Of a stretch of DNA of 64,000 nt, positions 36,194 to 53,676 are shown piece by piece. Location: positions 170,535-234,534 of the forward strand of contig JAKLIX010000002.1 of the NCBI GenBank assembly GCA_022709385.1, given 5' to 3'. Source of the DNA: Bacteroidota bacterium. Lineage in GTDB: Bacteria > Bacteroidota > Bacteroidia > Bacteroidales > CAIXZF01. Every line of letters starts with the position of its first letter. Positions within the stretch are counted from its first letter, which is position 1. The translations under genes and the position numbers were made by a program. The notes beneath the pieces are model-generated. The model did not search any database, was not told where the DNA came from, and saw only the letters and a program-made list of their open reading frames with translations.

Positions 36194-38746
36194 ATGATGT
36201 TCGAAAACGATTATCTTAAGAAAGGACTGCATCAGGAAGAAGTCCGGAAACGCTTACTGGAAGAGGGTTTCAATGAACTCTCAACCTCCCGTCCGAAGGG
36301 GATCTGGCCTATTATAGGAGGTGTGATCCGTGAGCCCATGTTCATCCTGTTGGTGATTTGCAGCGTTCTGTACATGGCCCTGGGCGACATCACCGAAGGT
36401 CTGATCCTGGCAAGTTTTGTGGTGGTGATCATGTGGATAGAATTCTATCAGGAAAGCAAGACTGAAAGGGCTTTGGAGGCATTGCGCGACCTGTCGAGTC
36501 CGAGGGCACTCGTGATCAGGGACGGAAGGGAGATCAGGATAGCCGGGCGGGAGGTGGTCAGAGACGACCTGCTGGTATTGCAGGAGGGGGACAGGGTGCC
36601 GGCGGATGCCCTGGTGCTTCAATGTACCAACCTGCTGGCCGATGAATCGCTGCTTACGGGGGAGTCAGCGGCGGTGCGGAAAAGAGAATGGGACGGCAGC
36701 TCAAAGGCATACCCTCCCGGGGGAGACGACCTGCCTGTGGTATTTTCGGGCTCGATGATCGTGCAGGGCAACGGCCTGGCAAGGGTGACGGCATGCGGCA
36801 TGCAGACAGAACTGGGTAAGATCGGGAAAGCCCTTGAAGCTGTGCCCCGGGAACCCACACGCCTGAAGGCAGAGATCGGCAAAATGGTCAGGCTGACGGC
36901 CATGGTCAGTATCATCCTGTGTATCCTGGTGGTGGTGGCTTATGCCCTGAGCAGGGGCGACTGGATCAAGGGATTCCTTGCGGGGATTACCCTGGCCATG
37001 GCCATGCTGCCAGAAGAATTTCCTGTGGTCATGACCGTTTTCCTTGCCCTTGGTGCATGGCGTATCAGCCGGAGGAATGTGCTTACCCGCAAACCCGCAG
37101 CCATCGAAAGCCTTGGCTCGGCCAGCGTGCTTTGTACCGACAAGACAGGAACACTCACAGAAAACCGAATGGCCGTCACCTGCCTGTACAACGGCAGGTC
37201 GGTCCTGGAGACTGAAAAGATCACACAACTTCCGGAGGACTTTCACGAGGTCATTGAATATGGCATCCTTGCCTCCCAGACCCGTCCGTTCGACCCCATG
37301 GAAAAGGCCATCATCGGCATGGGCAACCTTTATCTGCAACAGACCGAACACCTTCACTTCGATAAGGCAATGGTGCGGGAATATCCTCTTTCGCCGGAGC
37401 TGCTTGCCATGTCAAGGGTATTCAACGATGAAACCAACGACCGTTACCTGATCGCGGCCAAAGGAGCGCCGGAAGCCATCTTCGACCTTTGTCACCTGAA
37501 GGCGGAAGTGATCGGCCACATCGGGCACACTGTCAGGCTGTTCGCCTCCAAAGGCATGCGGGTCATCGCTGTGGCCCGGGCCGTCATCAGCAGAACGGCC
37601 ATCCCGAAGATCCAGCATGATTTTGACTTTGCTTTTACGGGGCTTATCGGGCTTCACGACCCGGTGAGGGAAGGTGTGGCAGAAGCAGTGGCGGATTGTC
37701 ACAGGGCCGGGATCCGCGTGATCATGATCACGGGGGATTACCCGGAAACGGCAGTCCAGATCGCCCGGCAATGCGGGCTGAAAGAGCCGGAACGCTGCAT
37801 CAGCGGACAGGATCTGGCCCGGATGAGCGAGGATGAACTGGATCATGAAATCAGCGAAGTACAGGTCTTTGCCCGGGTGGTACCGGAACAGAAGCTGAAG
37901 ATTGTCAATGCATTGAAGCGAAACGGGGAAACCGTTGCGATGACTGGCGACGGGATCAACGACGCGCCGGCCCTCAAGGCGGCCCATATCGGCATTGCCA
38001 TGGGCGACAAGGGGACGGACGTTGCCAGGGAGGCTTCGGACCTGGTGCTGATGGACGATAATTTCCTTTCCATCGTCAATGCCATCCGCATGGGCCGGAG
38101 GATCTTCGACAACCTTCAGAAGGCACTCAGTTACATCATCGCCATCCACCTTCCGATTGCCGGTATCTCCCTGATCCCGGTGCTGGCCGGAAAACTGCCC
38201 CTCATCCTCTGGCCTGTGCATATCGTTTTCCTGGAGCTCATCATCGACCCGGCCTGTACCCTGATCTTCGAAGCGGAAAAAGATGAAAAGGACCTGATGC
38301 GCCGCCCGCCCGCTTCACCCTCCCGCCGCTTCTTCGGTTCACAACGTCTGATGATCAGCATGATACAAGGAATGAATATCCTGGCGGTGGTGCTGGCCGT
38401 ATACTTTGCAGGGCTCGCCCTTGACCTGTCCGAAGAAAAAACCAGGGCCATGACCTTCTCAACCCTCATCATTGCCAACCTGGCCGTCATCCTCAGCAAC
38501 CGAAGCAGGCATGACAGCATCTTCCGGATCATCACCGTGAAGAACAACATGGTGAAGTGGATTCTCAGCGGCGCCTTGCTCTTCCTGCTGCTGACCCTGG
38601 AGCTTCCCTTCCTGAGAGCGCTCTTCGAATTCAGCTCACTCACGCCCACAGAGCTGGCCATAAGCGCATTGGCAGGAATGCTTTCGGTTACATGGTTTGA
38701 GGCATACAAATGGACAGGAAGGAAAAAGGCAGCAATGCTCAGATAA
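36194..38746 (+). CDS. P2-like cation-transporting P-type ATPase
   Basis: Membrane ATP-driven cation pump of 850 residues. The cation_ATPase_N region, actuator motif LLTGES, phosphorylation site DKTGTLTEN (Asp ~315), MTGDGINDAPAL hinge and six C-terminal helices are in order. In helix M4 the usual PEGLP of calcium pumps is replaced by PEEFP (near 275), so the transported ion may differ. The stop overlaps the end of the convergent phosphatase gene by 8 bp. No metal-binding N-terminal domain is present. Confidence 0.9.
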   Translation: MMFENDYLKKGLHQEEVRKRLLEEGFNELSTSRPKGIWPIIGGVIREPMFILLVICSVLYMALGDITEGLILASFVVVIMWIEFYQESKTERALEALRDLSSPRALVIRDGREIRIAGREVVRDDLLVLQEGDRVPADALVLQCTNLLADESLLTGESAAVRKREWDGSSKAYPPGGDDLPVVFSGSMIVQGNGLARVTACGMQTELGKIGKALEAVPREPTRLKAEIGKMVRLTAMVSIILCILVVVAYALSRGDWIKGFLAGITLAMAMLPEEFPVVMTVFLALGAWRISRRNVLTRKPAAIESLGSASVLCTDKTGTLTENRMAVTCLYNGRSVLETEKITQLPEDFHEVIEYGILASQTRPFDPMEKAIIGMGNLYLQQTEHLHFDKAMVREYPLSPELLAMSRVFNDETNDRYLIAAKGAPEAIFDLCHLKAEVIGHIGHTVRLFASKGMRVIAVARAVISRTAIPKIQHDFDFAFTGLIGLHDPVREGVAEAVADCHRAGIRVIMITGDYPETAVQIARQCGLKEPERCISGQDLARMSEDELDHEISEVQVFARVVPEQKLKIVNALKRNGETVAMTGDGINDAPALKAAHIGIAMGDKGTDVAREASDLVLMDDNFLSIVNAIRMGRRIFDNLQKALSYIIAIHLPIAGISLIPVLAGKLPLILWPVHIVFLELIIDPACTLIFEAEKDEKDLMRRPPASPSRRFFGSQRLMISMIQGMNILAVVLAVYFAGLALDLSEEKTRAMTFSTLIIANLAVILSNRSRHDSIFRIITVKNNMVKWILSGALLFLLLTLELPFLRALFEFSSLTPTELAISALAGMLSVTWFEAYKWTGRKKAAMLR

Positions 38747-39923
38747 AGTTCATCTTCACTTCCTTCAGAAATTTCTCCTCAAGAATACCAGCAATCCTGC
38801 GGATCACCGTGCGCCTGATCTCCAGTTCCACCGGCAGGCTGGGATCCTGGTGGGCCTCGTTGATCCGCGTACCGATCAGAAAATCAATCTCATCGCTGTC
38901 GAGAAACTGCCTGACGATCTGGTCGGCCGGTCCTTTGCCCAGTCGTGTGGTGTTGTTGTAACGCTTCAGTATCTCAGCCACTTTGCTGAGGGTCAGGATT
39001 CCTTCCGTTACCAGGTCGATACCCTCCATGCTGGAAACCGGCGGCAGGTCGGGATCGTGAAATTCAAAGCTGTCGATGATCTCCTTACCGAGTTCACGGC
39101 CAAGGATTTCGATGGTCGTGGCACCGCAAACGATCTTCTTTCCATTAAACTGTGATACGGTTTGGGCGAGCTCCCTGTCCTTGTCCGCTTCGTAGGGCGG
39201 CCCTGTGAGCAACAGCAGCTTCCTGGGTTCCCTGAAATAGATCACGGCAGCGGTGGTATCATCCTTGGGCTGGTGTTCATCATTGGCAACAGCCATGTTC
39301 AGCAGTTTGGCAGAGAGTCGTGTGGCTGAGATGTCGGGCGTGGTAGACACCAGGCGGAGGATATAGGCCTGCATGGCCTCCCTGCCCCAGCCAAAGGGAT
39401 ATCTGGCAGTTCCCATGCCAGACTGGACGATCCCGTCGGAACAGATCACGATACGATCTTCTTTAACAGGAGTGAAACTGCAGCAGCGCAGTTCCTTCCC
39501 CCTCACTTTCTCCCCCGGTATCAGGATATCCCACCATACAGGCTCGAGGAGGGTATTCTGCCGGAGCACGATGGCCTGGGGATTGTCGTATTCAAGGATG
39601 CGGGTTTCGCCGTTCAGGTCGATATCGATAATGGTGAAAGTGGCATAGGAGATCTTCCGTTCGCTGTCCTCGGGCAGCGTATTCATGATGATCTCTGCGA
39701 TCTTGTTGAATTCCTTGTGCTCTCTGGTAAAATTCATGGCCATGGTGGCCGTGAGCGCCGAAAGTACGCTGGCTTTCACACCGTGACCGAGGCCGTCGGA
39801 GAGTACGACGATCACCCGGTTCTCCTCCTTGATCTTTCCCGAAAGAAAAACATCCCCGCAAATACGTCCCTCCCAGTGGTTCACCTGCTGACTGTCAATT
39901 TCCACATGAAAAGCCTGCTTCAT
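38739..39923 (-). CDS. SpoIIE-family protein phosphatase (hydrogenase sensor module)
   Basis: PP2C-type serine/threonine phosphatase of 394 residues. The catalytic domain (~20-230) shows the metal-binding motifs VVLSDGLGHG, VICSDGIVQSG and PKDDTTAAVIYF. The C-terminal ~160 residues are of unclear function. It overlaps the stop of the H-cluster-like sensor gene by 4 bp, so it is translationally coupled to it and probably is its output domain on a separate chain. Phosphatases of this kind commonly accompany group C [FeFe]-hydrogenase-like sensors. Confidence 0.88.
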   Translation of the reverse strand: MKQAFHVEIDSQQVNHWEGRICGDVFLSGKIKEENRVIVVLSDGLGHGVKASVLSALTATMAMNFTREHKEFNKIAEIIMNTLPEDSERKISYATFTIIDIDLNGETRILEYDNPQAIVLRQNTLLEPVWWDILIPGEKVRGKELRCCSFTPVKEDRIVICSDGIVQSGMGTARYPFGWGREAMQAYILRLVSTTPDISATRLSAKLLNMAVANDEHQPKDDTTAAVIYFREPRKLLLLTGPPYEADKDRELAQTVSQFNGKKIVCGATTIEILGRELGKEIIDSFEFHDPDLPPVSSMEGIDLVTEGILTLSKVAEILKRYNNTTRLGKGPADQIVRQFLDSDEIDFLIGTRINEAHQDPSLPVELEIRRTVIRRIAGILEEKFLKEVKMNFI

Positions 39924-41785
39924 TCCGTCCTGCCTTTCTTCTCGTTCTGGTGAAACTCGATGATGGAGTTAAGGGTCTTTTCTGTCCGGCTGGCACCTTC
40001 ACCCAGCAGAAAGGCGATTTTCTGCACAAGCTCCAGGTTCTCGTTGATGGCTTCACTTACCCTGCGGATCACCTCCTCCTTGCGCACCTCCGGCATGAAC
40101 ATGTCGCGGACCACGGCTCCCACCACTTTGTTCCTCCGGATGGTAAACACCGAAACATTCAGGATACGTTCCTCGTAATGCACATCCCTGTTCACCACAT
40201 CATCGTCTTTCTCAAGCACATACGAGAAAAGATTGTAAAAAGGGTAAGGGATCAGGGTTTTCAGATCGGCTCCCTTCAGACCCTGGATCACCTCGCTGAT
40301 CTCCCCGGCTTCCCGTCCCAGAATTTCGATAAAACGCCGGTTCGACTGCATTATTCTGAGTTTGTCGTCCACGATGACCACCCCCGACGGCAGTTTCTGC
40401 AACATGGCGGCCGTGGTTTCCATGGCTTCACTGGCATGCTGCTGTTCAAGCCTGGCTTTTTTCTCCGATTCCTTCAGGGCTTCCTGGGTCTTGGCGAGCT
40501 TCTCATTGGTCTGTCGCAACGTCTTGATGTATTCCTGCCTGTTTTTCAGGGAGAAGGTCAGGCACATCTCCGTCTTTGCGAGTCCCTGCGCCACCGCAAC
40601 GGCAAAATCACGGCAGGAAGCATAACCGCAATTCCCGCAGGAACTACCGTCATCCTCCTCTTTTTTACCCAGCACTTTAAGCACCTCCCTGATCCTGGAT
40701 TCGGGCGGAGCAGGCAGACGCCTGTCATCCGCGTTGAAAGTCCGGGAAAGATCCAGCCCTGAAAACTCCTCCATATCCTTTTTCCATTGCCCCCAGTCCA
40801 TCTGCGACATCCGCTTGGCGGTATAATCAACCACCCACGCCCTCCTTACAATACGGCTGATGTCGCGGGTCATCCCTTCGGCAGGGGCACAACCTTCTCT
40901 GTAGAACACATTGAAATGATGGTTCACCTCTTCCATCTGTTCATCAAGCACCCTGAGCAGTTCGATCAGGTTTTCCCTTCCTTCGGTGGTGATGATACGG
41001 TTGGTGAGCAAATCTTCCGTAATATTCCCGGCCTGCAGGTAGCCCTGTGGTATCGGATAGAGCGCACCCTTATATCCGAATGGCGGATCGAAGCCGGAAT
41101 ATTCCAGGGTGCTTTCCGTGATGTTGTATTCTTCAAACAGCCTGCGCAGCTCGGCAAAGGTAAGCACCGCATCTGTGCGCTCATCATCCCGGGCCCGGGC
41201 AGCTTCGAGCATGGCGTTCACGGACGGGCCGATATACACCAGGCTGATCTGCGCTCCGTAACGTTGCCTGATGACTTTAGCCATGGCTGTCATGGGATTG
41301 ACAAACGGAGCCAGGTTGGGAACCAGTTTCGGATGGAATTTTTCCACAAAGGCAACCACCGACGGGCAATTCGAAGAAATATAATACTTGCCCCTGAAGT
41401 GTGTGAAAAGATCGGCATAACGGGCAGCCACCAGGTCGACCCCGAATGATACCTCACATACATCATGGAATCCCAGCTTCTTGATCATTGTGACGAATTT
41501 GCGGTAATCCGTCACATCTCCGAATTCTGCCGCAATTTCAGGTGCAAGCATGGCAACGATTGTTTGTTCGCCACCCAGGAGCATTTTAACCTTGTCGATA
41601 TCCGATCGGTGACTGACGGCAGACTGGTTGCACACCAGGATACAGGAGCCGCAACCGATACAACGGTCTTCTGCTATCCGGGGAAAATCATCCTCAGCAT
41701 TTACCCCGATGGCTTTGACCGGACATATCCTGACACAGGCATAACTCATCCGGCACTTCGAGTAATCTATTTCTATGATTCCCAT
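39920..41785 (-). CDS. [FeFe]-hydrogenase-like sensor with PAS domain and degenerate H-cluster site
   Basis: Soluble iron-sulfur sensor of 621 residues. Order: two-cluster ferredoxin domain (~1-55), hydrogenase large-subunit-like domain (~70-330), Fes [4Fe-4S] domain (SSCGNCGYASCRDFA, ~384-410), coiled coil (~420-460) and PAS domain (~465-570). The H-cluster loops are eroded: L1 is SSNCPS (Cys140 kept, partner Cys replaced by Asn), L2 reads GPSVNAM with Ser188 instead of Cys, and L3 has one Cys in EGCAPAEG. The first ferredoxin motif also has Ser14 where Cys is expected. It probably senses redox or another ligand without a functional H-cluster. It lies between the [2Fe-2S] protein and the phosphatase in one operon. 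Confidence 0.85.
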   Translation of the reverse strand: MGIIEIDYSKCRMSYACVRICPVKAIGVNAEDDFPRIAEDRCIGCGSCILVCNQSAVSHRSDIDKVKMLLGGEQTIVAMLAPEIAAEFGDVTDYRKFVTMIKKLGFHDVCEVSFGVDLVAARYADLFTHFRGKYYISSNCPSVVAFVEKFHPKLVPNLAPFVNPMTAMAKVIRQRYGAQISLVYIGPSVNAMLEAARARDDERTDAVLTFAELRRLFEEYNITESTLEYSGFDPPFGYKGALYPIPQGYLQAGNITEDLLTNRIITTEGRENLIELLRVLDEQMEEVNHHFNVFYREGCAPAEGMTRDISRIVRRAWVVDYTAKRMSQMDWGQWKKDMEEFSGLDLSRTFNADDRRLPAPPESRIREVLKVLGKKEEDDGSSCGNCGYASCRDFAVAVAQGLAKTEMCLTFSLKNRQEYIKTLRQTNEKLAKTQEALKESEKKARLEQQHASEAMETTAAMLQKLPSGVVIVDDKLRIMQSNRRFIEILGREAGEISEVIQGLKGADLKTLIPYPFYNLFSYVLEKDDDVVNRDVHYEERILNVSVFTIRRNKVVGAVVRDMFMPEVRKEEVIRRVSEAINENLELVQKIAFLLGEGASRTEKTLNSIIEFHQNEKKGRTE

Positions 41786-41795
41786 GGCAATGGTC

Positions 41796-42053
41796 TTAGG
41801 GGCGGTTAAAAAACTGATCGAGAAGTTCCGTCACGTTGTTTTCGTCCACATGCTCATAAATCAACTCATTGATTTTCAATACAGGGCCATTCTGGCAGTG
41901 ATTAAAGCATCGGGCCCCGTGAAACACAACCTTGTCCCAGAGACCATGCAGCCTGATGTAATCTTCTATCACCCTGCGTGTGGTATTGTTGCCCCTGGCA
42001 AAACAGGCGCTTCCAAGGCATATCGCGATCTCGGTCTTGTTTTCGTTTCCCAT
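41796..42053 (-). CDS. [2Fe-2S] thioredoxin-like ferredoxin (NuoE/HydC C-domain type)
   Basis: Small electron carrier of 85 residues with the four-cysteine pattern C-LGSA-C and C-FNH-C of thioredoxin-like [2Fe-2S] domains. The start is the ATG at 42053; the in-frame TTG at 42071 lies next to the promoter box. It is the first gene of the leftward sensor operon, 10 bp upstream of the H-cluster-like sensor, and may pass electrons or a redox signal to it. Confidence 0.85.
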   Translation of the reverse strand: MGNENKTEIAICLGSACFARGNNTTRRVIEDYIRLHGLWDKVVFHGARCFNHCQNGPVLKINELIYEHVDENNVTELLDQFFNRP

Positions 42054-42075
42054 GGGGGTATGTTTAATCAAGGGT

Positions 42076-42083: not shown

Positions 42084-42224
42084 ATGAATTTCCGGGCGTG
42101 AAGGGAAAGCCGGTCCGGCTGTGATGTGCAATACAAGGCAGTTTCATCATCGGTTTCGTGTGCGTCGATCAGAATTCATCTTATTGTAAATCAAATATTT
42201 ATATTAATTTCAACTCAAAAGTAA

Positions 42225-42259
42225 TTGTTAATTGATTAACATTGTTATTTTTTTAACAA
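42225..42259. promoter_or_regulatory. Two abutting Rex-type operators
   Basis: TTGTTAATTGATTAACAT (42225-42242) matches the clostridial-type Rex consensus TTGTTAAnnnnTTAACAA at 13 of 14 fixed positions. TTGTTATTTTTTTAACAA (42242-42259) matches with one change. The sites share one base and lie about 30 bp upstream of the hydC -7 box. The rex gene is in the operon they precede, so NADH-relieved repression and autoregulation are expected (inference). Confidence 0.75.
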
Positions 42260-42288
42260 TATTTTCTGATCTGTATTCGCTACTTATT

Positions 42289-42296
42289 TATCTTTG
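42289..42296 (+). promoter_or_regulatory. Promoter -7 box of the hydrogenase operon
   Basis: TATCTTTG matches the Bacteroidota consensus exactly and lies 30 bp before the hydC ATG. Confidence 0.65.
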
Positions 42297-42325
42297 CACA
42301 ACAAATTTCAATTTCCGTTTCTCCC

Positions 42326-42808
42326 ATGGAAAACGATATCGATCTGATACTGAACAAGTACATCAAGACCAGAAGGGAATCGCTGATACCGGCACTGCAG
42401 GAGATCCAATTGCTTACGGGAAGCATCAGTGAGGAAGTGATCAGGAAAAGTGCCCGGTATTTCGGTATTGCTCCTGCCAGGGTATACGGACTCAGTACTT
42501 TTTACGACCAGTTCAGGACGGAGCCTGCTTCAAAAATCCAGATTGAGTGCTGCAGAGGCACAGCCTGCCACCTGAACCATGCTGCCGGCCTGTTGCGCGA
42601 AACTGAAGACATGCTTGGCATCAGGGCCGGACAACAGAGCCGTGATGCCATCTTCAGTATTCGCCTGGTAAATTGCCTTGGCGGTTGCAACCATGGACCT
42701 GTCGTCAGAATAAACGGAAAAGCATACGGCCACATGTCGCTGGAAAAAATGAAAGAGATCATTGCCAGGGAACTGGATGACAACAATAATGCACATGAAC
42801 GGGCATGA
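42326..42808 (+). CDS. hydC: [FeFe]-hydrogenase subunit HydC (NuoE-like [2Fe-2S])
   Basis: Smallest subunit of a trimeric NAD- and ferredoxin-linked [FeFe] hydrogenase. At 160 residues it has the NuoE helical bundle followed by a thioredoxin-like domain with C-RGTA-C and C-LGG-C ligands for one [2Fe-2S] cluster. It is the first gene of the rightward operon and overlaps hydB by about 20 bp. It is expected to relay electrons between HydB and HydA. Confidence 0.92.
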   Translation: MENDIDLILNKYIKTRRESLIPALQEIQLLTGSISEEVIRKSARYFGIAPARVYGLSTFYDQFRTEPASKIQIECCRGTACHLNHAAGLLRETEDMLGIRAGQQSRDAIFSIRLVNCLGGCNHGPVVRINGKAYGHMSLEKMKEIIARELDDNNNAHERA

Positions 42809-44744
42809 TCATGACATATTAACGAAGGTGTTGACAGCAGGCCTGAGGACTCCCGTCCCGCCAGCCCTCACTGAAGAAGAACAGTGGCATCTGGAAGGCC
42901 TTCAGCTGAAACGGGTCGACCGGCCGCTCATTTTCGTGGGAACAGGCAGTTGCGGACAAATTGCAGGTGCAGGCGAAACGCTGCATGCTGTCAATGCCTA
43001 TCTTCAGTTGCCGGGAATCGATGCTGCCGTCGAAGAAACCGGCTGTAAAGGTTACTGCAGCATGGAACCCATGCTGGATATTCAATTGCCGGGCAAGGCG
43101 CGACTCTCGTTCGGACATGTGACGGCAGGCGATGTTCCTGAAATCCTGGATGCGGTACTCAACCGCACTGTTCCTGAGAATCTGCTGTTGGGACAGTATC
43201 CGCAGGATGGACTTGAAAACTGGGCAAGGGTTCCCCTGGTGAAAGACCTGCGCTTTTTCAGGCTTCAGCAACGTCACCTGATGGAAAGATGCGGGATGAT
43301 CAATCCCCGGAAAATAGAGCAAACCCTTGCCACAGGAGGATACTCCGCTTTCCTGAAGACCATCTTCACCTATCGCCCTGCACAGGTTTGCGATATCATC
43401 GACGCTGCAGGTCTTCTGGGAAGGGGTGGTAGTGCATTCCCTGCAGGTCAGAAATGGAAAAGCGCCTTCAATACGGCGGGGAACGACAAATACCTGGTAT
43501 GCAATGCCGATGACGCCGATCCCGGAGGAGCCATCAGCCGCGTGCTGCTCGAATCCGATCCCCATCTGGTAATCGAAGGACTTGCCATTGCTGCCTATGC
43601 CTGTGGAGCATCCCGGGCCTTCATCACCATCAGCGAGCGTTGCGGGCAAGCCATCAACAGAATGCAGGAGGCACTGCTTCAGGCTGCCGGTTTCGGTCTC
43701 TGGGGAAACAACATCTTCGGCTCGGGTTTCGACTTGCTGATCAGTCTGAAGATCACACCCGGTGCCTTTATCTGTGGTGAGGAAACAGCCCTGATCAGCA
43801 GCCTCGAAGGCAAACGCGGAATGCCCCGCTTCAGGCCGCCCTACCCCACTCAAAAAGGGTTTCTGGGAAACCCGACCGTGGTCAACAATATTGAAACCCT
43901 GGCCAATGTCCCGGGGATCATGAAACATGGTCCCGCCTGGTTCAAAAGCACCGGAACGGCCACATCCCCGGGCACCAAGCTGGTCTCTTTGTACGGAAGA
44001 ACCATGAACACGGGGCTCGTCGAAGTACCCATGGGAATCACCTACAGAGACATTATCTACAGCATCGGCGAAGGCATCCGCGACCAAAAGCAACTGAAGG
44101 CAATCCATCTCGGCGGTCCCATGGGCGCATTCACGGGTATTTCCGGACTTGATACCCCGCTTGAACTGGACAGCTCCCGCGACATGGCGGAAGGCATCGG
44201 ATCGGGAAGCATGCTGGTGCTTGATGAGGACCAGTGCCTGGTAGATGTTACCAGACACTTTATGGATTTCCTCAGGGATGAAAGTTGCGGTAAGTGTATT
44301 CCATGCCGGGAAGGAATCCGTCAAATGTCCCTTATCCTCGGGAGTATTACAGGTAAACCCGGCAAAGAGGGTGCTCATGAAACCCTGGAACGTTTCAAAG
44401 GAGCCATGCAGATCGAAGGGCTCGGAGCAGTGATACGGAGTACTTCCCTCTGCGGCCTGGGCAGGAATGCACCAAATACTGTCCTGAGTGCCATGAAACT
44501 GTTCAGGGAAGAAATCGAAGAACACATCTTCGACCGCCATTGCAAGGCCGGCATATGTATTCATTTACGGACCTTCATCATCGATACGGAAAAATGCACC
44601 GGTTGCAGCGCTTGTGCAAAGAAATGTCCGGCAGCAGCGATCATCGGGTCTCCTACCCAGGCTCATTTTATCATTGCCTCAAAATGTACCGGCTGCGGCA
44701 TCTGCTTCGAAACCTGCAAATTCGGAGCCATATCCATGCTTTAA
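42789..44744 (+). CDS. hydB: [FeFe]-hydrogenase subunit HydB (NuoF-like flavoprotein)
   Basis: FMN-binding subunit that exchanges electrons with NAD(H). N-terminal thioredoxin-like domain, 51-kDa FMN/NADH domain (GRGGSAFPAGQKW, VCNADDADPGG, GEETALISSLEG), SLBB domain, iron-sulfur motif ESCGKCIPC plus LCGLG, and a C-terminal two-cluster ferredoxin (CTGCSACAKKC, CTGCGICFETC). The start among ATGs at 42777, 42789 and 42795 is uncertain. Two departures: the N-terminal [2Fe-2S] site keeps only three of four cysteines (GTGSCG, GCKGYC), and the NADH motif has DDADPGG where NuoF proteins have DEGDPGA. Confidence 0.9.
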   Translation: MHMNGHDHDILTKVLTAGLRTPVPPALTEEEQWHLEGLQLKRVDRPLIFVGTGSCGQIAGAGETLHAVNAYLQLPGIDAAVEETGCKGYCSMEPMLDIQLPGKARLSFGHVTAGDVPEILDAVLNRTVPENLLLGQYPQDGLENWARVPLVKDLRFFRLQQRHLMERCGMINPRKIEQTLATGGYSAFLKTIFTYRPAQVCDIIDAAGLLGRGGSAFPAGQKWKSAFNTAGNDKYLVCNADDADPGGAISRVLLESDPHLVIEGLAIAAYACGASRAFITISERCGQAINRMQEALLQAAGFGLWGNNIFGSGFDLLISLKITPGAFICGEETALISSLEGKRGMPRFRPPYPTQKGFLGNPTVVNNIETLANVPGIMKHGPAWFKSTGTATSPGTKLVSLYGRTMNTGLVEVPMGITYRDIIYSIGEGIRDQKQLKAIHLGGPMGAFTGISGLDTPLELDSSRDMAEGIGSGSMLVLDEDQCLVDVTRHFMDFLRDESCGKCIPCREGIRQMSLILGSITGKPGKEGAHETLERFKGAMQIEGLGAVIRSTSLCGLGRNAPNTVLSAMKLFREEIEEHIFDRHCKAGICIHLRTFIIDTEKCTGCSACAKKCPAAAIIGSPTQAHFIIASKCTGCGICFETCKFGAISML

Positions 44745-44754
44745 CAACTGGCCC

Positions 44755-46476
44755 ATGATGATCAACATTGAAGTCAATCACAAGCAAATCCAGGCCAGGC
44801 ATGGAGAAACCATCCTCTCGGCACTGCGGAGAAACGGTATCGACGTGCCTACCCTCTGTCATCTTGAGGAACTCACTCCCACCGGAGCCTGCAGGATCTG
44901 TGCCGTGGAAATCGAAGGCCGGCAGGAATTGGTGACCTCCTGTTCTCAACCGGTGGAAGAATGGATGAAAATACAAACCCATTCCCCCCGTGTGCTCGAG
45001 GCCCGGAAAACCCTTATCGAACTGATCCTGGCCAATCACCCCGGCGACTGCCTGTATTGCCAGAAAAACGGTAATTGCGAATTGCAGCGCCTGGCCTGGT
45101 CGCTGAATATCCGGGAAAGACGCTTCCACCAAAACACCCTTCCTTCCCGCATCGATCAAAGCTCCCCCGCCCTGGTGTTTGAACCGGCAAAATGTATCCT
45201 CTGCGGCCGCTGTGTCAGAATCTGTGGAGAAGTCATCGGTGTCACCGCCCTGGAATTCATTTACCGCGGACAGCATACCGCTGTCGCCACCACCGGCAAT
45301 AAAGCACTGAACCTTTCCTGCTGTATCACCTGCGGACAATGCATACAGGTCTGTCCAACCGCTGCCCTCCGCGAAAAAGACCAAACCACGGAAATTCAGC
45401 AAGTCCTGCACAACAAAGCCGTTTTCCCCGTAATCCATTACAGCCCTGCCCTTCCGGTCTCCATTGCCGAAACCCTCGGATTCAAGCCAGGCAGAGACAT
45501 GCAGAAACACCTGCATGCCATCCTGAGAAACATGGGCTTTCGTAAAGTTTTCGACACGTCTTTTGCGATTGATTTCCTTGTAAATGAACAGATTGAACTT
45601 TTCCTCAAACGCCTTAAAGCCAAATCCGGTCTTCCGCTCATCAGCAGTTGCTGCCCAGCCTGGGTTAAACATGCAGAACAGTCGCTTCCCGATCTGCTTC
45701 CCTTGCTGGCTCCGCTCCGCTCACCCCAGCAGATCATGGGCCGGCTGGTAAAGAAATATCTCAGCGATCAGTTCAGGCTGCAGCCACACCAGGTCATCAG
45801 CTGTTCACTGACACCCTGTACAGCCAAAAAGTTTGAAGCACAGCGTGAAGAGATGATGGAGAACGGTACCGCCGATGTCGATTACGTGATCACTACCCGG
45901 GAACTCATCCGTCTGATCAACCTGAACGGGATCGATGTACGCCGGCAGGAAGAAGATGTTCCCGATCCTCCCTTTGCCTCGGGCAGCGCCGCAGCCAGGC
46001 TCTATTCCTCGACGGGAGGCGTCGCCGAAGCCTTTGCCCGCGCCCTTTATTACAAACTGGAAGGAAAGGAAATGTCCTCCCCAAAAATCAATAAACTCAG
46101 AAGCAGCAAAGAAACGAAAGTGTTTTCTTTCACCGCGGGAGGCAGGGAGTTCGGAGTGGCTGCCATTCAGTCTTTTAACTCGCTGCTGCCCCTGCTCGAA
46201 GAGATAAAAAGTGGCAAAAAACACATACAGTTTATCGAAGTCATGGCCTGCCCTGGAGGTTGTGTAAACGGAGGCGGACAAGCCCTGAACGATGACAGGG
46301 AAGCCTGGAGTCAACGGATGAAAACCATCTATGAGCTGGATGAAAGGGATCCGGTCAGGGTCAGCGCAAAAAATCCAGGCCTACTCGCATATTATAAAAG
46401 CACACAGACAGAACCCGGAAGCAGGGAGGCGGCCTCCCTCTGCCAGGCTGTCTTCAGGGAAAGGAAGGTATTGTGA
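44755..46476 (+). CDS. hydA: [FeFe]-hydrogenase catalytic subunit HydA
   Basis: Catalytic subunit reducing protons or oxidising H2, with about 573 residues from the ATG at 44755 (10 bp after hydB). N-terminal [2Fe-2S] ferredoxin domain, His-Cys cluster motif (HPGDCLYCQKNGNC), two [4Fe-4S] clusters (CILCGRCVRIC, CITCGQCIQVC), then the H domain with complete ligands: L1 SSCCPAW ~296, L2 TPCTAKKFE ~352, L3 MACPGGCVNGGG ~496. This is the group A M3-type architecture found with HydBC in electron-bifurcating enzymes. Bifurcation is inferred from the trimer, not from sequence alone. Confidence 0.95.
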   Translation: MMINIEVNHKQIQARHGETILSALRRNGIDVPTLCHLEELTPTGACRICAVEIEGRQELVTSCSQPVEEWMKIQTHSPRVLEARKTLIELILANHPGDCLYCQKNGNCELQRLAWSLNIRERRFHQNTLPSRIDQSSPALVFEPAKCILCGRCVRICGEVIGVTALEFIYRGQHTAVATTGNKALNLSCCITCGQCIQVCPTAALREKDQTTEIQQVLHNKAVFPVIHYSPALPVSIAETLGFKPGRDMQKHLHAILRNMGFRKVFDTSFAIDFLVNEQIELFLKRLKAKSGLPLISSCCPAWVKHAEQSLPDLLPLLAPLRSPQQIMGRLVKKYLSDQFRLQPHQVISCSLTPCTAKKFEAQREEMMENGTADVDYVITTRELIRLINLNGIDVRRQEEDVPDPPFASGSAAARLYSSTGGVAEAFARALYYKLEGKEMSSPKINKLRSSKETKVFSFTAGGREFGVAAIQSFNSLLPLLEEIKSGKKHIQFIEVMACPGGCVNGGGQALNDDREAWSQRMKTIYELDERDPVRVSAKNPGLLAYYKSTQTEPGSREAASLCQAVFRERKVL

Positions 46477-48497
46477 AGATGGGACGCTCTGAAAGGAAGC
46501 AACTGGTATTTACGGTCAAGGACAAATGCAGGGTCTGCTATACCTGCCTGAGGGAATGTCCGGCCAAGGCCATCCGGATTATCAACGGCCAGGCTGAAGT
46601 GATCCACGAACGCTGCATCGGATGCGGGAATTGTGTAAAGGTCTGCAGCCAGGATGCCAAAGTCTACCTGAAGACCACCACAGAAGCAGCATCCCTGCTC
46701 CTGGCAGACGAGCCGGTGGTAGCCTGCCTGGCACCCAGCTTCGCCGCTGAATTCACCGATATTCCCGACCACCGGCTGCTCGTCGGGATGATCCGGGCCC
46801 TCGGTTTCAGCCACGTGGTGGAAGTAGCCTTCGGTGCGGATATGATCGCAAGGGAATACCACAAACTGATGAAAGACAATGAACGCAGGGCAACGATTAC
46901 TTCCGACTGTCCGGCCATCGTCTATTTCATCGAACATTACCACCCCGACCTGGTTCCCTGCCTTGCTCCCATCGCTTCTCCCATGGTAGCCACGGTTCGT
47001 ATCGTGCACAAAAAGTACGGGGCAAACTGCAAAACCATCTTTATAGGTCCGTGCATTGCCAAGAAGGCTGAAAGTGATGAGGTTGATGAAGTATTGACAT
47101 TCAGAGAATTAAGAGAGCTGTTCCAGTTGAATGGGATAAGCCCCGACCAGGTGGAGGCGGCAGATTTTGACCCTCCCTATGCCGGAAAAGGGGCTATTTT
47201 CCCGATCAGCGGCGGACTGCTTCAAAGCTCGGAGATATCCTCCAGCCTTTACGAAGGCGGAGTTCTCCTGGCGGAAGGACGGGTCAATATCCGGGATGCC
47301 GTGAAAGAATTTGAGGAAGGACTGGTGCAGGCACGTCACCTGGAACTGCTTTGCTGCGAAGGCTGCATCATGGGCGCCGGCATGTCGCCGCAAGGCAAGA
47401 AATACGCCCGCCGCAATGCATTGAACCGATATGTAAGCGCAAAGCTTGAACAGGCCGATGAACAGCAGACGGAAAAGCAGCAGGCGGAATTTTCGGCAAT
47501 GGACTTTTCACAATCGTTTGATGCGCTGGACCGCAGGATCAACGATCCTTCAAACGAAGAAATTACCCGTGTGCTGCATTCCATGGGTAAGTTCACGGCG
47601 ACCGACATGCTGAACTGCTGTGCCTGCGGCTACGACACCTGCGTTGAACATGCCATCGCCGTGGTGCAGGGACTGGCCGAAAACGAAATGTGCCTGCCCT
47701 GGTCGATCGAGAAGCTTCACAATTATATCAAAGAACTTAATATCTCCAACGAAAAGCTTGCTTCCGCAAAACAGGCGCTGCAACAATCGGAGCGTCTGGC
47801 TTCCCTGGGACAACTCTCGGCCGGCATCGCCCATGAATTGAACAATCCTCTCGGAGTCATTACGATGTATTCAAATATCCTGATGGATGAATCGAAGGAA
47901 GATGACCCCATGCGGGAAGACCTGAACCTGATCGTGGAACAGGCCGACCGCTGCAAAAAGATCGTGTCAGGGCTCCTGAATTTTGCACGCAAAAACAAGG
48001 TCAATGTGCATGAAACCAAGCTGGATGTGCTGCTTGAGCACAGCCTCAACTCGGTGATCATTCCGGCGGATGTACAGTTGTCTGTCCGGATCGACCCCGC
48101 ATACCCCCTTGCCAGCCTGGATTACGACCAGATGACGCAGGTAATGGTGAACCTGCTGAAAAATGCCATCGATGCCATGCCGGAAGGGGGCAAGCTGAGC
48201 CTGGACATCGGGGGTGACGAATCACTGCTTGTCATGATCATCAGCGATACCGGCTGCGGAATCAGCCGGGAAGACATGACCAAAGTGTTTACGCCTTTTT
48301 TTACCACAAAAGGGATCGGCAAAGGAACCGGCCTGGGATTACCGATCATTTACGGAATTGTCAAGATGCACAAGGGGAATATCACCGTGGAATCCAATGC
48401 AGATCCACAACAGGGTCCCACGGGTACCCGCTTTACGCTGAGCATACCACGAAATACAGATCACACAATCAACAACTTAAACCAGGCACAGGCATGA
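46473..48497 (+). CDS. [FeFe]-hydrogenase-like sensor histidine kinase (HydS type)
   Basis: Sensor kinase of 674 residues. Ferredoxin domain (CRVCYTCLREC, CIGCGNCVKVC), H-cluster domain ~70-330 with L1 TSDCPA (~143), L2 GPCIAKK (~192) and L3 CCEGCIMGAG (~294), Fes domain ~383-408, then HisKA with GIAHELNNP (His ~453) and an ATPase domain. The three H-cluster loops keep the iron-binding cysteines but the proton-relay Cys of L1 is Asp, the usual picture for group C sensors. The GTG at 46473 overlaps the hydA stop; the ATG at 46479 is an alternative. Probably an H2 or redox sensor feeding the two receiver proteins downstream. Confidence 0.9.
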   Translation: MKMGRSERKQLVFTVKDKCRVCYTCLRECPAKAIRIINGQAEVIHERCIGCGNCVKVCSQDAKVYLKTTTEAASLLLADEPVVACLAPSFAAEFTDIPDHRLLVGMIRALGFSHVVEVAFGADMIAREYHKLMKDNERRATITSDCPAIVYFIEHYHPDLVPCLAPIASPMVATVRIVHKKYGANCKTIFIGPCIAKKAESDEVDEVLTFRELRELFQLNGISPDQVEAADFDPPYAGKGAIFPISGGLLQSSEISSSLYEGGVLLAEGRVNIRDAVKEFEEGLVQARHLELLCCEGCIMGAGMSPQGKKYARRNALNRYVSAKLEQADEQQTEKQQAEFSAMDFSQSFDALDRRINDPSNEEITRVLHSMGKFTATDMLNCCACGYDTCVEHAIAVVQGLAENEMCLPWSIEKLHNYIKELNISNEKLASAKQALQQSERLASLGQLSAGIAHELNNPLGVITMYSNILMDESKEDDPMREDLNLIVEQADRCKKIVSGLLNFARKNKVNVHETKLDVLLEHSLNSVIIPADVQLSVRIDPAYPLASLDYDQMTQVMVNLLKNAIDAMPEGGKLSLDIGGDESLLVMIISDTGCGISREDMTKVFTPFFTTKGIGKGTGLGLPIIYGIVKMHKGNITVESNADPQQGPTGTRFTLSIPRNTDHTINNLNQAQA

Positions 48498-48880
48498 AAA
48501 CGATCCTGATTGCGGACGATGATCCGGATTATTTATTCCAGATGAAAGTGAAACTTGAACGCTTCGGATACCGGGTCATAACGGCCGACAGTCAGAAGGA
48601 AGCCGGAAGGATCCTCGAAACGGTAAAACCTGACCTGGCCATCCTCGACCTGATGATGGAAACCGAAGACAGCGGCTTTATCCTGGCGCACAAGATCAGC
48701 CGGATGTATCCCGGCCTGCCCGTCATCATTGCGAGCGGAGTTACTGCCGAAACCGGCATGGACTTCGGACCTGCAGCCTCAGGCGACAGAAGCCTCATCA
48801 AGGCCGATCTCTTTATCGACAAAGGCATCACCGCCGAACGGCTGGAACGCGAAATACAAAACCTGATGCAAAAACACTGA
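48494..48880 (+). CDS. Single-domain response regulator
   Basis: A receiver domain only (128 residues) with the acidic pocket IADDDPD and acceptor Asp in LAILDLMME. It overlaps the sensor-kinase stop by 4 bp. With no output domain it probably acts by protein contact or as a phosphate relay between the sensor kinase and the hybrid protein that follows. Confidence 0.88.
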   Translation: MKTILIADDDPDYLFQMKVKLERFGYRVITADSQKEAGRILETVKPDLAILDLMMETEDSGFILAHKISRMYPGLPVIIASGVTAETGMDFGPAASGDRSLIKADLFIDKGITAERLEREIQNLMQKH

Positions 48881-48923: not shown

Positions 48924-50054
48924 ATGGCAACCTTCAGTGTATTGGTAGTGGATGACGAGGCAGGTATCCGGTCGGGTACCCGCCGCATCCTGCAGCATTT
49001 CAGGGTGGATTATCCCTTTATGGATGAGCAGGTTGAATTTGAAGTGCTGGAAGCGGCCAGCGGCGAAGAAGCCCTCGACCTGATCTGTCAGCAGCCACCC
49101 GACATTATCCTGCTCGACAATAAGCTTCCCGGTATCCAGGGCGTGGAAGTACTCGAATTCATCAAACAGAAAAACATCGACTCCCTGGTGGTGATGATCA
49201 CTTCCTATGCTTCGCTGGAAATTGCAGTGAAGGCAACACGCGACGGTGCCTTCGACTTCATCCCCAAACCTTTCACTCCCCAGGAACTCAGATCCTCCAT
49301 GGAAAACATAGCCAAGCAGTTGTTCCTCAGGAGGATGACCAGGAAAATGAACAAGGAGGGAAAACAGATCAGGTTTCAGTTCCTGTCTGTGCTTTCCCAT
49401 GAGTTGAAAGCACCCCTGAATGCCGTGGAAGGTTACCTGAGAATGATGCAGGAAAGACAGGCCGGAAACCGCCTGGAAGATTACCAGGACATGATCCTGC
49501 GTTCACTGGAGAGGATCAAGGGCATGAGAACCCTGATCCTCGACCTGCTGGACCTGACACGGATTGAGTCAGGCAGCGGGAAGGCAGAATATACAAAAGT
49601 GTGTATCAATGAGTTGGCACAAACGGCCATCGATACCATGCGCCCCTATGCCATTCAGAGAGATGTCAATGTGTACCTGAACGCCAGCGACCGGATTTGC
49701 CTGGCCGGCGATGCGAATGAGATGCAGATCATTCTGAACAACCTGATCTCGAACGCTGTGAAATACAACCGGGAAGGCGGCCGGGTGGATTGCACCCTGA
49801 AAGGAGATAAAGAAAATATTCATATTATTGTATCTGATACCGGGATCGGGATCGCTTCTGAAGACCAGGAGAATCTGTTCAGGGATTTTGTCAGGATCAG
49901 GACACCCGAGACCAGAAATATCGCCGGAAGCGGACTGGGACTGTCGATCGTGAAAAAGCTGGTGGATATATACGGAGGCATCATAGAAGTTAAAAGCAAA
50001 ACCGGGGAAGGAAGTATCTTTACCGTCACATTGCCGAGAAACAGGGAAAACTGA
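48924..50054 (+). CDS. Receiver-histidine kinase hybrid
   Basis: Receiver domain at the N-terminus (~1-125; VVDDEAGIRSG, acceptor Asp in IILLDNKLPG, KPF switch), HisKA with LSVLSHELKAPLNAVEG (~155) and an ATPase domain (NNLISNAVKYN, DTGIGIA, GSGLGLSIVKKL). The order receiver-kinase suggests its kinase activity is controlled by phosphorylation from another kinase, most simply the H-cluster sensor kinase two genes upstream. It is soluble with no membrane segment. Its downstream target is not evident. Confidence 0.88.
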   Translation: MATFSVLVVDDEAGIRSGTRRILQHFRVDYPFMDEQVEFEVLEAASGEEALDLICQQPPDIILLDNKLPGIQGVEVLEFIKQKNIDSLVVMITSYASLEIAVKATRDGAFDFIPKPFTPQELRSSMENIAKQLFLRRMTRKMNKEGKQIRFQFLSVLSHELKAPLNAVEGYLRMMQERQAGNRLEDYQDMILRSLERIKGMRTLILDLLDLTRIESGSGKAEYTKVCINELAQTAIDTMRPYAIQRDVNVYLNASDRICLAGDANEMQIILNNLISNAVKYNREGGRVDCTLKGDKENIHIIVSDTGIGIASEDQENLFRDFVRIRTPETRNIAGSGLGLSIVKKLVDIYGGIIEVKSKTGEGSIFTVTLPRNREN

Positions 50055-50059
50055 AATAT

Positions 50060-50707
50060 ATGACAATCATGCCAAAATTACCGGAAAAAACGATCGAACG
50101 CCTGAGCCAATACCGCAGGGCATTGCTCATCTGCCTGGGAAAGAACAAGCAGTACATCTTTTCCCATGAACTGGCGGGCATGCTGCACCTCACGCCGGTG
50201 CAGGTCCGCCGCGACATTATGCTGATCGGATACAGCGGTACACTGAGGCAGGGGTATGAAATCAGGGAAATGATCGCACTGATAGGAAAAATCATTGATT
50301 CGGAAGAGGGTCTGAAAGTGGCTGTGATCGGTCTTGGAAACCTCGGCCGGGCAATGATCAGCTACTTTAACGGGAAACGGACCAAACTCAGCATCGTGGC
50401 AGCCTTCGACATCAACCAGGAAAAGGTCAACCGCGTGTATGCAGGCGTTCCTTGTTACCATATCGACATGCTCAGCAAGATCATCCGCTCCGAAAACATT
50501 CCCATCGCCATCATGACCGTACCCGGAGACGAAGCGGCCAAGGTTACCGAATCGCTGGTCCTGGCCGGGATCAAGGGTATCCTGAACTACACTCCCACCC
50601 CGGTGAATGTTCCGGCCAATACCTACCTGCAGGAATATGACATGATCACTTCCCTAGAAAAAATCGCTTATTTCGTCAAACAGGGTAACAGGGAGGAGCA
50701 TATCTGA
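50060..50707 (+). CDS. rex: Redox-sensing transcriptional repressor Rex
   Basis: NADH-responsive repressor of 215 residues. Winged-helix domain 1-80 (LHLTPVQVRRDIMLIGYSG is the recognition region) and a Rossmann NAD(H) domain with VAVIGLGNLGRA (~90-105). Its presence in the operon and the two Rex-type operators upstream of hydC argue for direct control of the hydrogenase by the NADH/NAD+ ratio. It lies 5 bp after the hybrid kinase gene; the ATG at 50069 is an alternative start. Confidence 0.95.
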   Translation: MTIMPKLPEKTIERLSQYRRALLICLGKNKQYIFSHELAGMLHLTPVQVRRDIMLIGYSGTLRQGYEIREMIALIGKIIDSEEGLKVAVIGLGNLGRAMISYFNGKRTKLSIVAAFDINQEKVNRVYAGVPCYHIDMLSKIIRSENIPIAIMTVPGDEAAKVTESLVLAGIKGILNYTPTPVNVPANTYLQEYDMITSLEKIAYFVKQGNREEHI

Positions 50708-50709
50708 GC

Positions 50710-51651
50710 ATGAAAATCTATCACGACCTGGATCAGATCAGGGATATTTCCAGGGCGGTAGTCACTACAGGTTCGTTCGACGGAGTGCATATCGGGCACA
50801 AAGCGATCATGAAACGCCTTGGAAAACTGGCTCAACAGGTGAAAGGAGAAAGCGTGCTGATCACCTTTCATCCCCACCCCAGGAAGGTACTCTATCCTGA
50901 AACTGCCGGAAAAAACCTCTTCCTGATCAATTCCCAGCAGGAAAAAGTCGAACTGCTGCGAAAAACCGGTCTCGATCACCTGTTGATCATTCCCTTTACC
51001 CTTGAATTCTCCCAAATGACTTCATTCAACTTCATCCGGAAGATCCTGGTGGGGATACTGAACGTCCATACCGTGGTGGTGGGTTTTAACCACCACTTCG
51101 GCCATCAGCAGGAGGGAGATTTCCGGCATCTGTATGAACTGGGGAAATACCACGGATTTCAGGTCGAGGAGATTCCCGAACAGGAACTGGAAAACGAAAC
51201 CGTAAGTTCCACCCGCATCAGGCGTGCCCTGCAGGAAGGGAAGATCCAGCGCGCCAATGCATACCTCGACCACTATTACATGATCATGGGTACCGCCCGC
51301 AACACGCCATCCTGCACTGTCCCCGATGTCGGCAGCTGTTTTACCCTCCCTGTGGAAGAAAACTGCAAACTCATCCCCCCCTGCGGCTGCTATGCAGTCA
51401 GCCTGATATCTCCTGCCGGTAAGCACAAGGCCATGGCAATCATCACAGAATCAGACACAAACGGGCATGAATCCGGTCACAGGCAACAAGTGAACATCCT
51501 TCCGCTGGAAGAGATCAGGCTTACGGAAAAATGTGCCGTGAGTGTTTACTTTCACAAACTGATCCGACTTTTGCCCGATTCCGGCAACAAACTACCGGCA
51601 GCCGGGCTTTTAATTGAAGCAGGACAGGAGATCCGTGAACTCATCTTTTAA
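50710..51651 (+). CDS. ribF: Bifunctional riboflavin kinase / FAD synthetase
   Basis: Makes FMN and then FAD from riboflavin. N-terminal nucleotidyltransferase domain with TTGSFDGVHIGHK and VVVGFNHHFG, serine-threonine motif SSTRIRRAL, and a C-terminal flavokinase-like domain (~185-313) which is poorly conserved and lacks an obvious GTAxP-type PT-N core beyond MGTARNTPS. It starts 2 bp after rex. Cofactor supply for the flavoprotein HydB may explain its place here. Confidence 0.85.
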   Translation: MKIYHDLDQIRDISRAVVTTGSFDGVHIGHKAIMKRLGKLAQQVKGESVLITFHPHPRKVLYPETAGKNLFLINSQQEKVELLRKTGLDHLLIIPFTLEFSQMTSFNFIRKILVGILNVHTVVVGFNHHFGHQQEGDFRHLYELGKYHGFQVEEIPEQELENETVSSTRIRRALQEGKIQRANAYLDHYYMIMGTARNTPSCTVPDVGSCFTLPVEENCKLIPPCGCYAVSLISPAGKHKAMAIITESDTNGHESGHRQQVNILPLEEIRLTEKCAVSVYFHKLIRLLPDSGNKLPAAGLLIEAGQEIRELIF

Positions 51652-51688: not shown

Positions 51689-53119
51689 ATGATATCCAAG
51701 CCTGAAACATGCAGGATCAAAGACCAGAGGATGCAGGCATTTATCGATCCTGATGAAATATGGTCCAAACTCGATAATACCAAAGCTGATCCTCTGAGGG
51801 TCAGGGAGATCATCGCCAAATCCCTCGAAAAAAACCGCCTCAGCCTGGAAGAAACCGCCTGCCTGATCAATTCCACCGATCCGGAACTGACGGAAGAAAT
51901 CAAAGCAGGGGCCAGGGAGTTGAAAGAGAAGGTCTACGGCAACCGTATCGTGCTTTTTGCCCCGCTTTATGTAGGAAACAAGTGTATCAACAACTGCTCC
52001 TACTGTGGCTTCCGTACCTCCAACAAAGCGGCGGTCAGAACCACCCTCAGCGATGAAGAACTGATCAGCGAAGTGGAAGCCTTGGAGGATACCGGCCAGA
52101 AGAGGTTGATCCTGGTCTATGGCGAACATCCCGAATACAGCCCGGAATTCATTGCCCACACGGTGCGCGTGGTTTATGGCGTTAAAAAAGGCAGAGGAGA
52201 GATCAGAAGGGTCAATATCAATGCCGCTCCGCTTGAAATCAGCGGTTTCCGAACAGTGAAGGATGCCGGCATCGGCACTTACCAGGTATTCCAGGAAACC
52301 TACCACCCCGAAGCCTACAAACAATACCACCTTGGGGGGATCAAACGCAATTACGAATACAGGCTCACGGCACTCGACAGGGCACAGGAAGCCGGTGTGG
52401 ACGATGTGGGTATCGGTGCTTTGTTCGGACTGTACGACTGGCGTTTTGAAGTGATGGGGCTCGTCAGGCACACCAACCACTTCGAAGCAGTGTACAATGT
52501 GGGACCTCACACCATCTCCTTCCCCCGCATCCAGCTGGCCTCTTCCATGCAGGTCGACAGAAATTACGCCGTCAGTGACCAGGATTTCGTCAAACTGGTC
52601 GCCATCCTCCGGCTGGCCGTCCCCTACACCGGCATGATCCTTACAGCCAGGGAAACTGCTGAGGTCAGACGCGAGGTACTGCGCTTCGGTGTCTCCCAGA
52701 TCGACGGAGGCACCAAACTGGAACTCGGCAGTTACCACGAAAAAGAAAAAGCCGCCCAACAAAACCTCGAGAAAGAACAATTCTTTATCAATGATTCCAG
52801 AAGCCTGGCGGAAATCATCGATGAACTTCTCGGACAGGGATATATGCCGTCCTTTTGCACCTCCTGCTACCGTGCGGGAAGAACCGGCGAACACTTTATG
52901 GAATTCTCCGTCCCGGGTTTCATCAAAAGGTACTGCTCCCCGAATGCCATGCTCACCCTTGCCGAATATCTCGAGGATTATGCCGATGAAACCCTAAAAC
53001 AAAAAGGTTATCTCGTGATTCAAAAGAATATCTTGGATCTGGCCCGCTTCCAGAAAGTGGATGAACTCAACCGCAGAATCGAAAGGATCAGGCAGGGTGA
53101 AAGAGACCTGTATTTTTAA
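51689..53119 (+). CDS. hydG: [FeFe]-hydrogenase H-cluster radical SAM maturase HydG
   Basis: Radical SAM tyrosine lyase that makes the CO and CN ligands of the H-cluster. Radical SAM cysteines C99, C103 and C106 in NKCINNCSYCGF; C-terminal auxiliary-cluster cysteines in FCTSCYRAGRTG and RYCSPNA. Length 476 matches the family. The other maturases HydE and HydF are not in this window. It is followed by two TM1266-like genes, the usual company of hydrogenase maturation genes. Confidence 0.95.
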   Translation: MISKPETCRIKDQRMQAFIDPDEIWSKLDNTKADPLRVREIIAKSLEKNRLSLEETACLINSTDPELTEEIKAGARELKEKVYGNRIVLFAPLYVGNKCINNCSYCGFRTSNKAAVRTTLSDEELISEVEALEDTGQKRLILVYGEHPEYSPEFIAHTVRVVYGVKKGRGEIRRVNINAAPLEISGFRTVKDAGIGTYQVFQETYHPEAYKQYHLGGIKRNYEYRLTALDRAQEAGVDDVGIGALFGLYDWRFEVMGLVRHTNHFEAVYNVGPHTISFPRIQLASSMQVDRNYAVSDQDFVKLVAILRLAVPYTGMILTARETAEVRREVLRFGVSQIDGGTKLELGSYHEKEKAAQQNLEKEQFFINDSRSLAEIIDELLGQGYMPSFCTSCYRAGRTGEHFMEFSVPGFIKRYCSPNAMLTLAEYLEDYADETLKQKGYLVIQKNILDLARFQKVDELNRRIERIRQGERDLYF

Positions 53120-53143: not shown

Positions 53144-53401
53144 ATGACACAAACCAGGATTTTAGGTTTACTGATCAGAGACCGGATCAAGGAATCCGGC
53201 AGAACCCAGCAGGTACTCAGCCGGCATCAGCATCTTATCCGCAGCAGGCTGGGCTTCCATGAACTTTCTGATGAAAAATGCAGCCGCAGCGGCATCATCC
53301 TGCTCCAGCTCTCTGGGAATCCCGATGATTGGAAATCCCTGATGGCCGACCTGGAAAAGATCGGGGGAATAGAAGTGCAACAGATGGATTTTATTCATTG
53401 A
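53144..53401 (+). CDS. TM1266-like iron-only hydrogenase system putative regulator, copy 1
   Basis: Small ACT-like-fold protein of 85 residues, of the family found beside hydrogenase maturases. The ending IGGIEVQQMDFIH and the middle SRSGIILLQLSG are characteristic. The family role is described as regulatory but its mechanism is not established. It lies 24 bp after hydG and 20 bp before its paralogue. Confidence 0.8.
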   Translation: MTQTRILGLLIRDRIKESGRTQQVLSRHQHLIRSRLGFHELSDEKCSRSGIILLQLSGNPDDWKSLMADLEKIGGIEVQQMDFIH

Positions 53402-53421
53402 TCATCAATATCATACCTGAT

Positions 53422-53676
53422 ATGAAAGAAAGAATCATCCTGGGTGTGCAACTCAAACAGGGATCCGGACAAGCCCTGAAGCTTCAGCAGATATTCTCCA
53501 AATTCGGCTGTGTGATTAAAACACGGCTGGGACTCAATGATTCGGATGGGGAGGGTGGCACGCAACAAGGACTGATCATCCTGGAACTCCAGGGAGATCA
53601 ATCTGACTGTCAACATCTTATTAATGAATTACATCGCCTGGAAGACGCAGATGTACAGCAAATGAACTTCCTTTAA
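53422..53676 (+). CDS. TM1266-like iron-only hydrogenase system putative regulator, copy 2
   Basis: Paralogue of the preceding gene (84 residues; QQGLIILELQG, DADVQQMNFL). The start is the ATG at 53422; the frame continues upstream into the previous gene but without family similarity. The two copies are diverged, so the duplication is old; they could form a heterodimeric ACT-like unit (inference). Confidence 0.8.
   Translation: MKERIILGVQLKQGSGQALKLQQIFSKFGCVIKTRLGLNDSDGEGGTQQGLIILELQGDQSDCQHLINELHRLEDADVQQMNFL

Follow-up and report, generated by a model that had tools for sequence, protein, structure and literature searches.

Rex is the best-known bacterial sensor of NADH/NAD+, and most work on it has dealt with single sites in Gram-positive bacteria; across the family, NAD+ favours DNA binding and NADH weakens it. 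In the 64,000-nucleotide stretch analysed here (the window), two Rex-type palindromes meet at a single base between divergent rows of hydrogenase genes, one of which includes rex itself. The locus thus raises the question of whether this 35-bp element is one operator built for two Rex dimers, or a pair of sites that one dimer at a time, another regulator, or chance could account for.

The twin operator, its promoter and its genes

Operator 1 (TTGTTAATTGATTAACAT, 42225..42242, + strand) is distal and operator 2 (TTGTTATTTTTTTAACAA, 42242..42259, + strand) proximal to hydC, and each 18-mer departs by one mismatch from TTGTTAANNNNTTAACAA (TTGTTAA-N4-TTAACAA), with base 42242 common to both, as the sequence-only reading had reported. 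Both sites fit the 18-bp inverted repeat TTGTKAA-N4-TTMACAA, and their half-sites match the consensus TTGTGAA-N4-TTCACAA given for the Rex operator (ROP) of Gram-positive bacteria in PMC8376106. Sharing of one base is better worded as two 16-bp cores, TGTKAW-N4-WTMACA, with one base between them, and the composition of that base equals background. A lost wing contact deduced from this unconstrained base was considered and dropped, since opposite end-base preferences of the two sites would also give background.

Statistically, loose single Rex-like sites are not rare, being expected about twice per 64 kb by chance (three seen at up to three mismatches, against 1.8 expected). The 35-bp twin pattern, also at up to three mismatches, occurred at one place in the 64 kb, with 0.00 expected, none in 100 shuffles of the window and none in 200,000 shuffles of the 130 AT-rich bp around the twin. 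Geometrically, the operator centres are 17 bp apart, or about 223 degrees in B-DNA, so two bound dimers would sit roughly on opposite sides of the helix, and the earlier proposal of a common helix face has to be given up.

The twin does lie between the divergent gene rows and beside the hydC promoter, as first described. The -7 box of this promoter, TATCTTTG (42289..42296, + strand), matches the Bacteroidota consensus TAnnTTTG (PMC7366714) and starts 30 bp past the twin, the preferred place, while a candidate -33 box, TCTG (42265..42268, + strand; class consensus YTTG), stands where YTTG is found in 55 aligned twin flanks. The hydC transcript is expected to start near 42300, and the twin would span about -75 to -41 if TATCTTTG is centred on -7. 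On the leftward side, AATATTTG (42192..42199, - strand) is a weak candidate -7 box with one mismatch to TAnnTTTG, and TTTG (42216-42219, - strand) is a weak, possible -33 box; TATATTTG occurs at +24/+25, on the same side as this candidate box, in four other loci (L055, L093, L132 and L138), likewise a weak signal.

Functionally, the rightward row (all + strand) opens with hydC (42326..42808; NuoE-like 2Fe-2S subunit, PF01257), hydB (42762..44744; NuoF-like NADH-binding subunit, PF01512 and PF10589) and hydA ([FeFe] hydrogenase catalytic subunit, 44614..46476, PF02906), the start codons of the latter two being uncertain. For a tentative placement among the NADH-dependent bifurcating [FeFe] hydrogenases (group A), the genes for HydA, HydB and HydC are all present, but HydA scores 610 bits to its best model, NF040763 (NADH-dependent group A6), below the cut-off of 765. 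There follow a hydrogenase-domain histidine kinase (46473..48497; PF02906, PF00512, PF02518), a response regulator (48494..48880; receiver-domain matches), a response regulator-histidine kinase (48924..50054; PF00072, PF00512, PF02518) and rex (50060..50707), which is indeed the seventh open reading frame of the row, as had been claimed, and scores 183.8 bits to NF003995 (cut-off 126). Next in line are ribF (50710..51651; NF004160, 180 bits, below the cut-off of 295), probably a member of the hydC-rex operon, and the maturase gene hydG (51689..53119; TIGR03955, 490.6 bits, above cut-off), possibly a member. Past hydG, two small TM1266-like proteins are encoded in tandem (53144-53676), the first with 76 bits to NF052672, below cut-off, and the second similar by eye only. 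The leftward row (- strand) comprises a gene for a 2Fe-2S thioredoxin-like protein, the first of the row (41796..42071, PF01257), followed by those for an [FeFe]-hydrogenase-like PAS sensor (39920..41785, PF02906, with a weak PAS match) and a SpoIIE-type phosphatase (38739..39923, PF07228).

Among eight related hydC loci compared, six kept the full row hydC-hydB-hydA-kinase-response regulator-response regulator/kinase-rex-ribF, and five of these six had a twin in front, the sixth (L233) having at least one site and no exact twin. The layout for a putative Rex autoregulation is conserved, because the hydC-to-rex row is kept in six related loci, five of them behind a twin. In the window, rex is directly followed by ribF (50060-51651), a linkage kept in six relatives that may put the supply of flavin under common regulation with HydB, which binds flavin.

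Recurrence of the twin across genomes

The genome-wide motif scan that the sequence-only reading had recommended yielded two further twins in the 4.08-Mb host genome, three in all with the same one-base overlap. One (C12:83761-83795) precedes another hydB-type gene, and the other (C27:29603-29637, equivalent to L002:3004-3038) falls outside hydrogen metabolism, 52 bp in front of a glutamate dehydrogenase gene. The host also carries one Rex-site pair 21 bp apart, and other Rex-like sites before two glutamate dehydrogenases, a malic enzyme, a nuoB row and a second hydB; a relative from the same family likewise has three twins.

We then considered close pairs, defined as Rex sites separated by any gap of 0-30, in 393 genomes of the order Bacteroidales, with the reversed pattern as a control. 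Exactly the 17-bp spacing, that is, the one-base overlap, was found in 24 of the 38 close pairs (about 15 families), and the reversed pattern gave 0; a relaxed twin, with the two outer bases dropped, occurred in 52/393 genomes of the order, again with 0 for the reversed control. In a phylum-wide sample, by comparison, just two of 395 genomes had a close pair, one being the host genome. When about 85,000 species genomes were scanned for the exact twin, 84 stretches matched; almost all carry a Bacteroidales or Bacteroidetes label, and the exceptions come under Alphaproteobacteria, Acidobacteriota and other labels (record labels taken as given). Records of Glassbacteria, Ignavibacteriae, Chitinivibrionales and Neomarinimicrobiota, four other phyla, have the twin 4-29 bp before rex itself. 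With this strict pattern no titles from Firmicutes, Thermotogota or Actinomycetota appeared, and, given also the rarity of close pairs in the phylum-wide sample, the idea that the twin is a general Rex habit found no support. Judged from these genomes, the twin geometry is a putative fixed-geometry switch that anaerobic Bacteroidales use repeatedly.

The twin also holds a fixed place at promoters. TAnnTTTG starts 28-31 bp past the twin in 55 flanks and 8-11 bp past it in 18, with few elsewhere, so that 73 of 111 twins have a -7 box at one of two fixed distances, on exactly one side. When the 55 flanks were aligned on the -7 box, YTTG, which was not part of the query, emerged at the -33 place; in the nearer class (8-11 bp) the twin covers the -33 box. 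The two classes are 20 bp, or about two helical turns, apart, with the same gene families behind both. For the most part, single Rex sites at these loci instead overlap the -33 region or the transcript start. Two other layouts were observed. In one relative (L230:1622-1739), the hydC promoter is framed by a pair of 35-bp twins 83 bp apart, of which one is upstream of the -33 box and the other over the expected transcript start, and in L031, L036, L040 and L043 a Rex pair has its centres 42-45 bp apart and a -7-like box between the operators.

Behind at least 84 of 89 unique twins, the next gene in line comes from a short list of families (seven of the 84 assigned by eye), namely a hydrogenase subunit or sensor, a 115-aa protein beside hydrogenase genes, rex, V-type ATPase subunit E and succinyl-CoA synthetase. 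A DRTGG-like identity for the 115-aa proteins was dropped, there being no Pfam match at 1e-6. The V-type ATP synthase subunit E-like gene was seen behind twins at L067:2608-3378 (110 bits to NF002424, below cut-off) and in L082, L100 and L115, and its position suggests possible Rex control of the V-type ATPase.

The Rex subfamily that accompanies the twin

The Rex protein encoded in the window matches the family profile (NF003995), with a winged helix (PF06971) and a Rossmann domain (PF02629), and among Rex chains in the PDB it matches 2vt2 at E=6e-37. In its recognition helix, R50 and R51 of VRRD correspond to Arg50/Arg51 of Streptococcus agalactiae Rex, and its wing, GTLRQGY, carries Leu62 in place of the basic residue equivalent to Arg62. 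The S. agalactiae Rex-DNA structure has Arg62 in contact with the adenine opposite the operator's first T (PMC8376106; numbering as read here), and this base pair is the outermost of the 18-mer, the very pair common to both operators of the twin. Position 62 is Leu or Pro in all twin-associated Rex examined, versus Lys or Arg in the four solved relatives compared; in these alignments, a non-basic position 62 marks a Rex subfamily that still matches the family profile. We hypothesize that the change in the wing allows two dimers to fit.

All 29 strict-pair genomes and 51 of the 52 relaxed-twin genomes encode a Rex DNA-binding domain, versus 243 of 393. The window Rex has a close relative (E<=1e-50) in 46/50 twin genomes versus 141/364 overall (P=3e-17; here and in the other statistics, relatedness is ignored). 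Many genomes have the window-type Rex subfamily and no exact twin. Many Bacteroidales encode another Rex family (L179-L194), whose recognition helix mostly has AKD instead of RRD, which suggests that AKD-type Rex may read another operator.

Readings of the twin and their implications

We posit, with a probability of roughly 60%, that the 35-bp element is an operator dedicated to two Rex dimers, through which the hydrogenase operon that includes rex is repressed; Rex binding, simultaneous binding, cooperativity and repression at the twin are what we infer from the comparisons above. At low NADH, two dimers of the operon-encoded Rex would occupy the adjoining 16-bp cores, roughly on opposite sides of the helix and probably each aiding the other's binding. 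Placed between about -75 and -41, right next to the -33 box, they would hinder RNA polymerase at the hydC promoter. As NADH rises, Rex would leave, and the NADH-using hydrogenase, the sensors, Rex, RibF and probably HydG would be made, with rex inside its own target operon closing a negative feedback loop. A fixed spacing of about one footprint length speaks for two dimers that occupy the DNA together and affect one another, and its constancy across the order makes cooperative binding plausible. Likewise, repression in both promoter classes is favoured because the nearer class covers the -33 box and the same gene families lie behind both. Against a two-dimer repressing operator stand the upstream place, which is unusual for a repressor, the orthologous locus without an exact twin (L233), and the many genomes in which the window-type Rex is present and an exact twin absent. 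Both dimers may also not fit, because Rex footprints should touch or overlap at 17 bp; the Rex-DNA structure was solved with 22-bp DNA (PMC8376106).

This crowding is the starting point of an unlikely alternative, in which the sites are mutually exclusive and the second core merely raises the chance that a single dimer is bound, giving graded rather than cooperative repression. The S. agalactiae wing touches the outermost pair, common to both sites, and two such wings would meet there; yet the twin-associated subfamily is without the wing Arg62, and extra occupancy needs no fixed spacing, whereas 24 of 38 close pairs share one. The upstream place could instead mean that Rex is an activator, with a twin centred near -58 whose dimers touch RNA polymerase and raise transcription at low NADH, so that the hydrogenase would work towards H2 uptake. 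The tight distance upstream of the -33 box in 55 flanks, where single sites lie over the promoter instead, is in line with such a role, but we regard it as quite improbable, given that twins cover the -33 box before the same gene families in other genomes, that one L230 twin lies over the transcript start, and that Rex is described as a repressor in published work (PMC6391272, PMC3544828, PMC8376106).

Whether Rex is the reader at all can be weighed by the company that the twin keeps. The CRP/FNR site TGTGA-N6-TCACA overlaps the similar Rex consensus, and a protein of that family, or a reader of the junction palindrome TAACA-N-TGTTA, could recognize the element; in the same vein, PMC3544828 notes for S. 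aureus ArcR a consensus resembling that of Rex. The twin, though, is tightly linked to the presence of Rex and to one Rex subfamily, stands directly before rex in other phyla and precedes NAD(H)-linked genes, which makes another reader very unlikely. Chance in AT-rich intergenic DNA would readily supply loose single sites, about two per 64 kb, but we consider it ruled out for the twin by recurrence, empty shuffles and reversed controls, to which promoter phasing and gene association add.

Compared with the Gram-positive ROP as covered in PMC6391272 and PMC8376106, the two-dimer operator proposed here has like half-sites, the 4-bp spacer and NAD(H)-linked targets, with hydrogenase and rex genes among them, and that Rex controls [FeFe] hydrogenase genes and rex is already on record in the former (PMC6391272). 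It differs in having two sites that overlap by one base at a fixed 17-bp spacing, in mostly TGTTA rather than TGTGA, and in its constant position at a promoter of the Bacteroidota type. Promoters that accommodate more than one Rex dimer are known from earlier reports, namely S. aureus ldh1, whose sites, at -160 and -218 relative to the start codon, are 58 bp apart and give two independent shifted bands (PMC3544828), S. mutans rex and adhE (PMC3441419) and S. agalactiae adhE (PMC8376106). The passages on these promoters describe no fixed overlapping geometry like that of the twin. In the open-access literature, outside which the main comparative Rex-regulon survey lies, searches on Rex in Bacteroidetes and on Rex operators that overlap turned up no match. 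Promoters with two Rex sites are thus already published, and the one-base-overlap geometry is new within the open-access literature searched. The unrelated proteins DtxR/IdeR and QacR also place two dimers on different faces of closely overlapping operator sites, at offsets much shorter than 17 bp.

More tentatively, and at somewhat less than even odds, the Rex subfamily with the altered wing may have evolved together with the 35-bp operator, such that two dimers on nearly opposite faces, with one unread base pair between them, would form a steep NADH switch for hydrogenase operons across an order. The 35-bp probe and the wing-residue prediction make cooperativity, sign and structure directly testable. 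With its fixed geometry and its near confinement to one order, and to genes of hydrogen metabolism and other energy genes, the double operator points to cooperative NADH sensing among anaerobes that are for the most part uncultured, and the twin pattern marks likely Rex-controlled hydrogenase operons in metagenomes.
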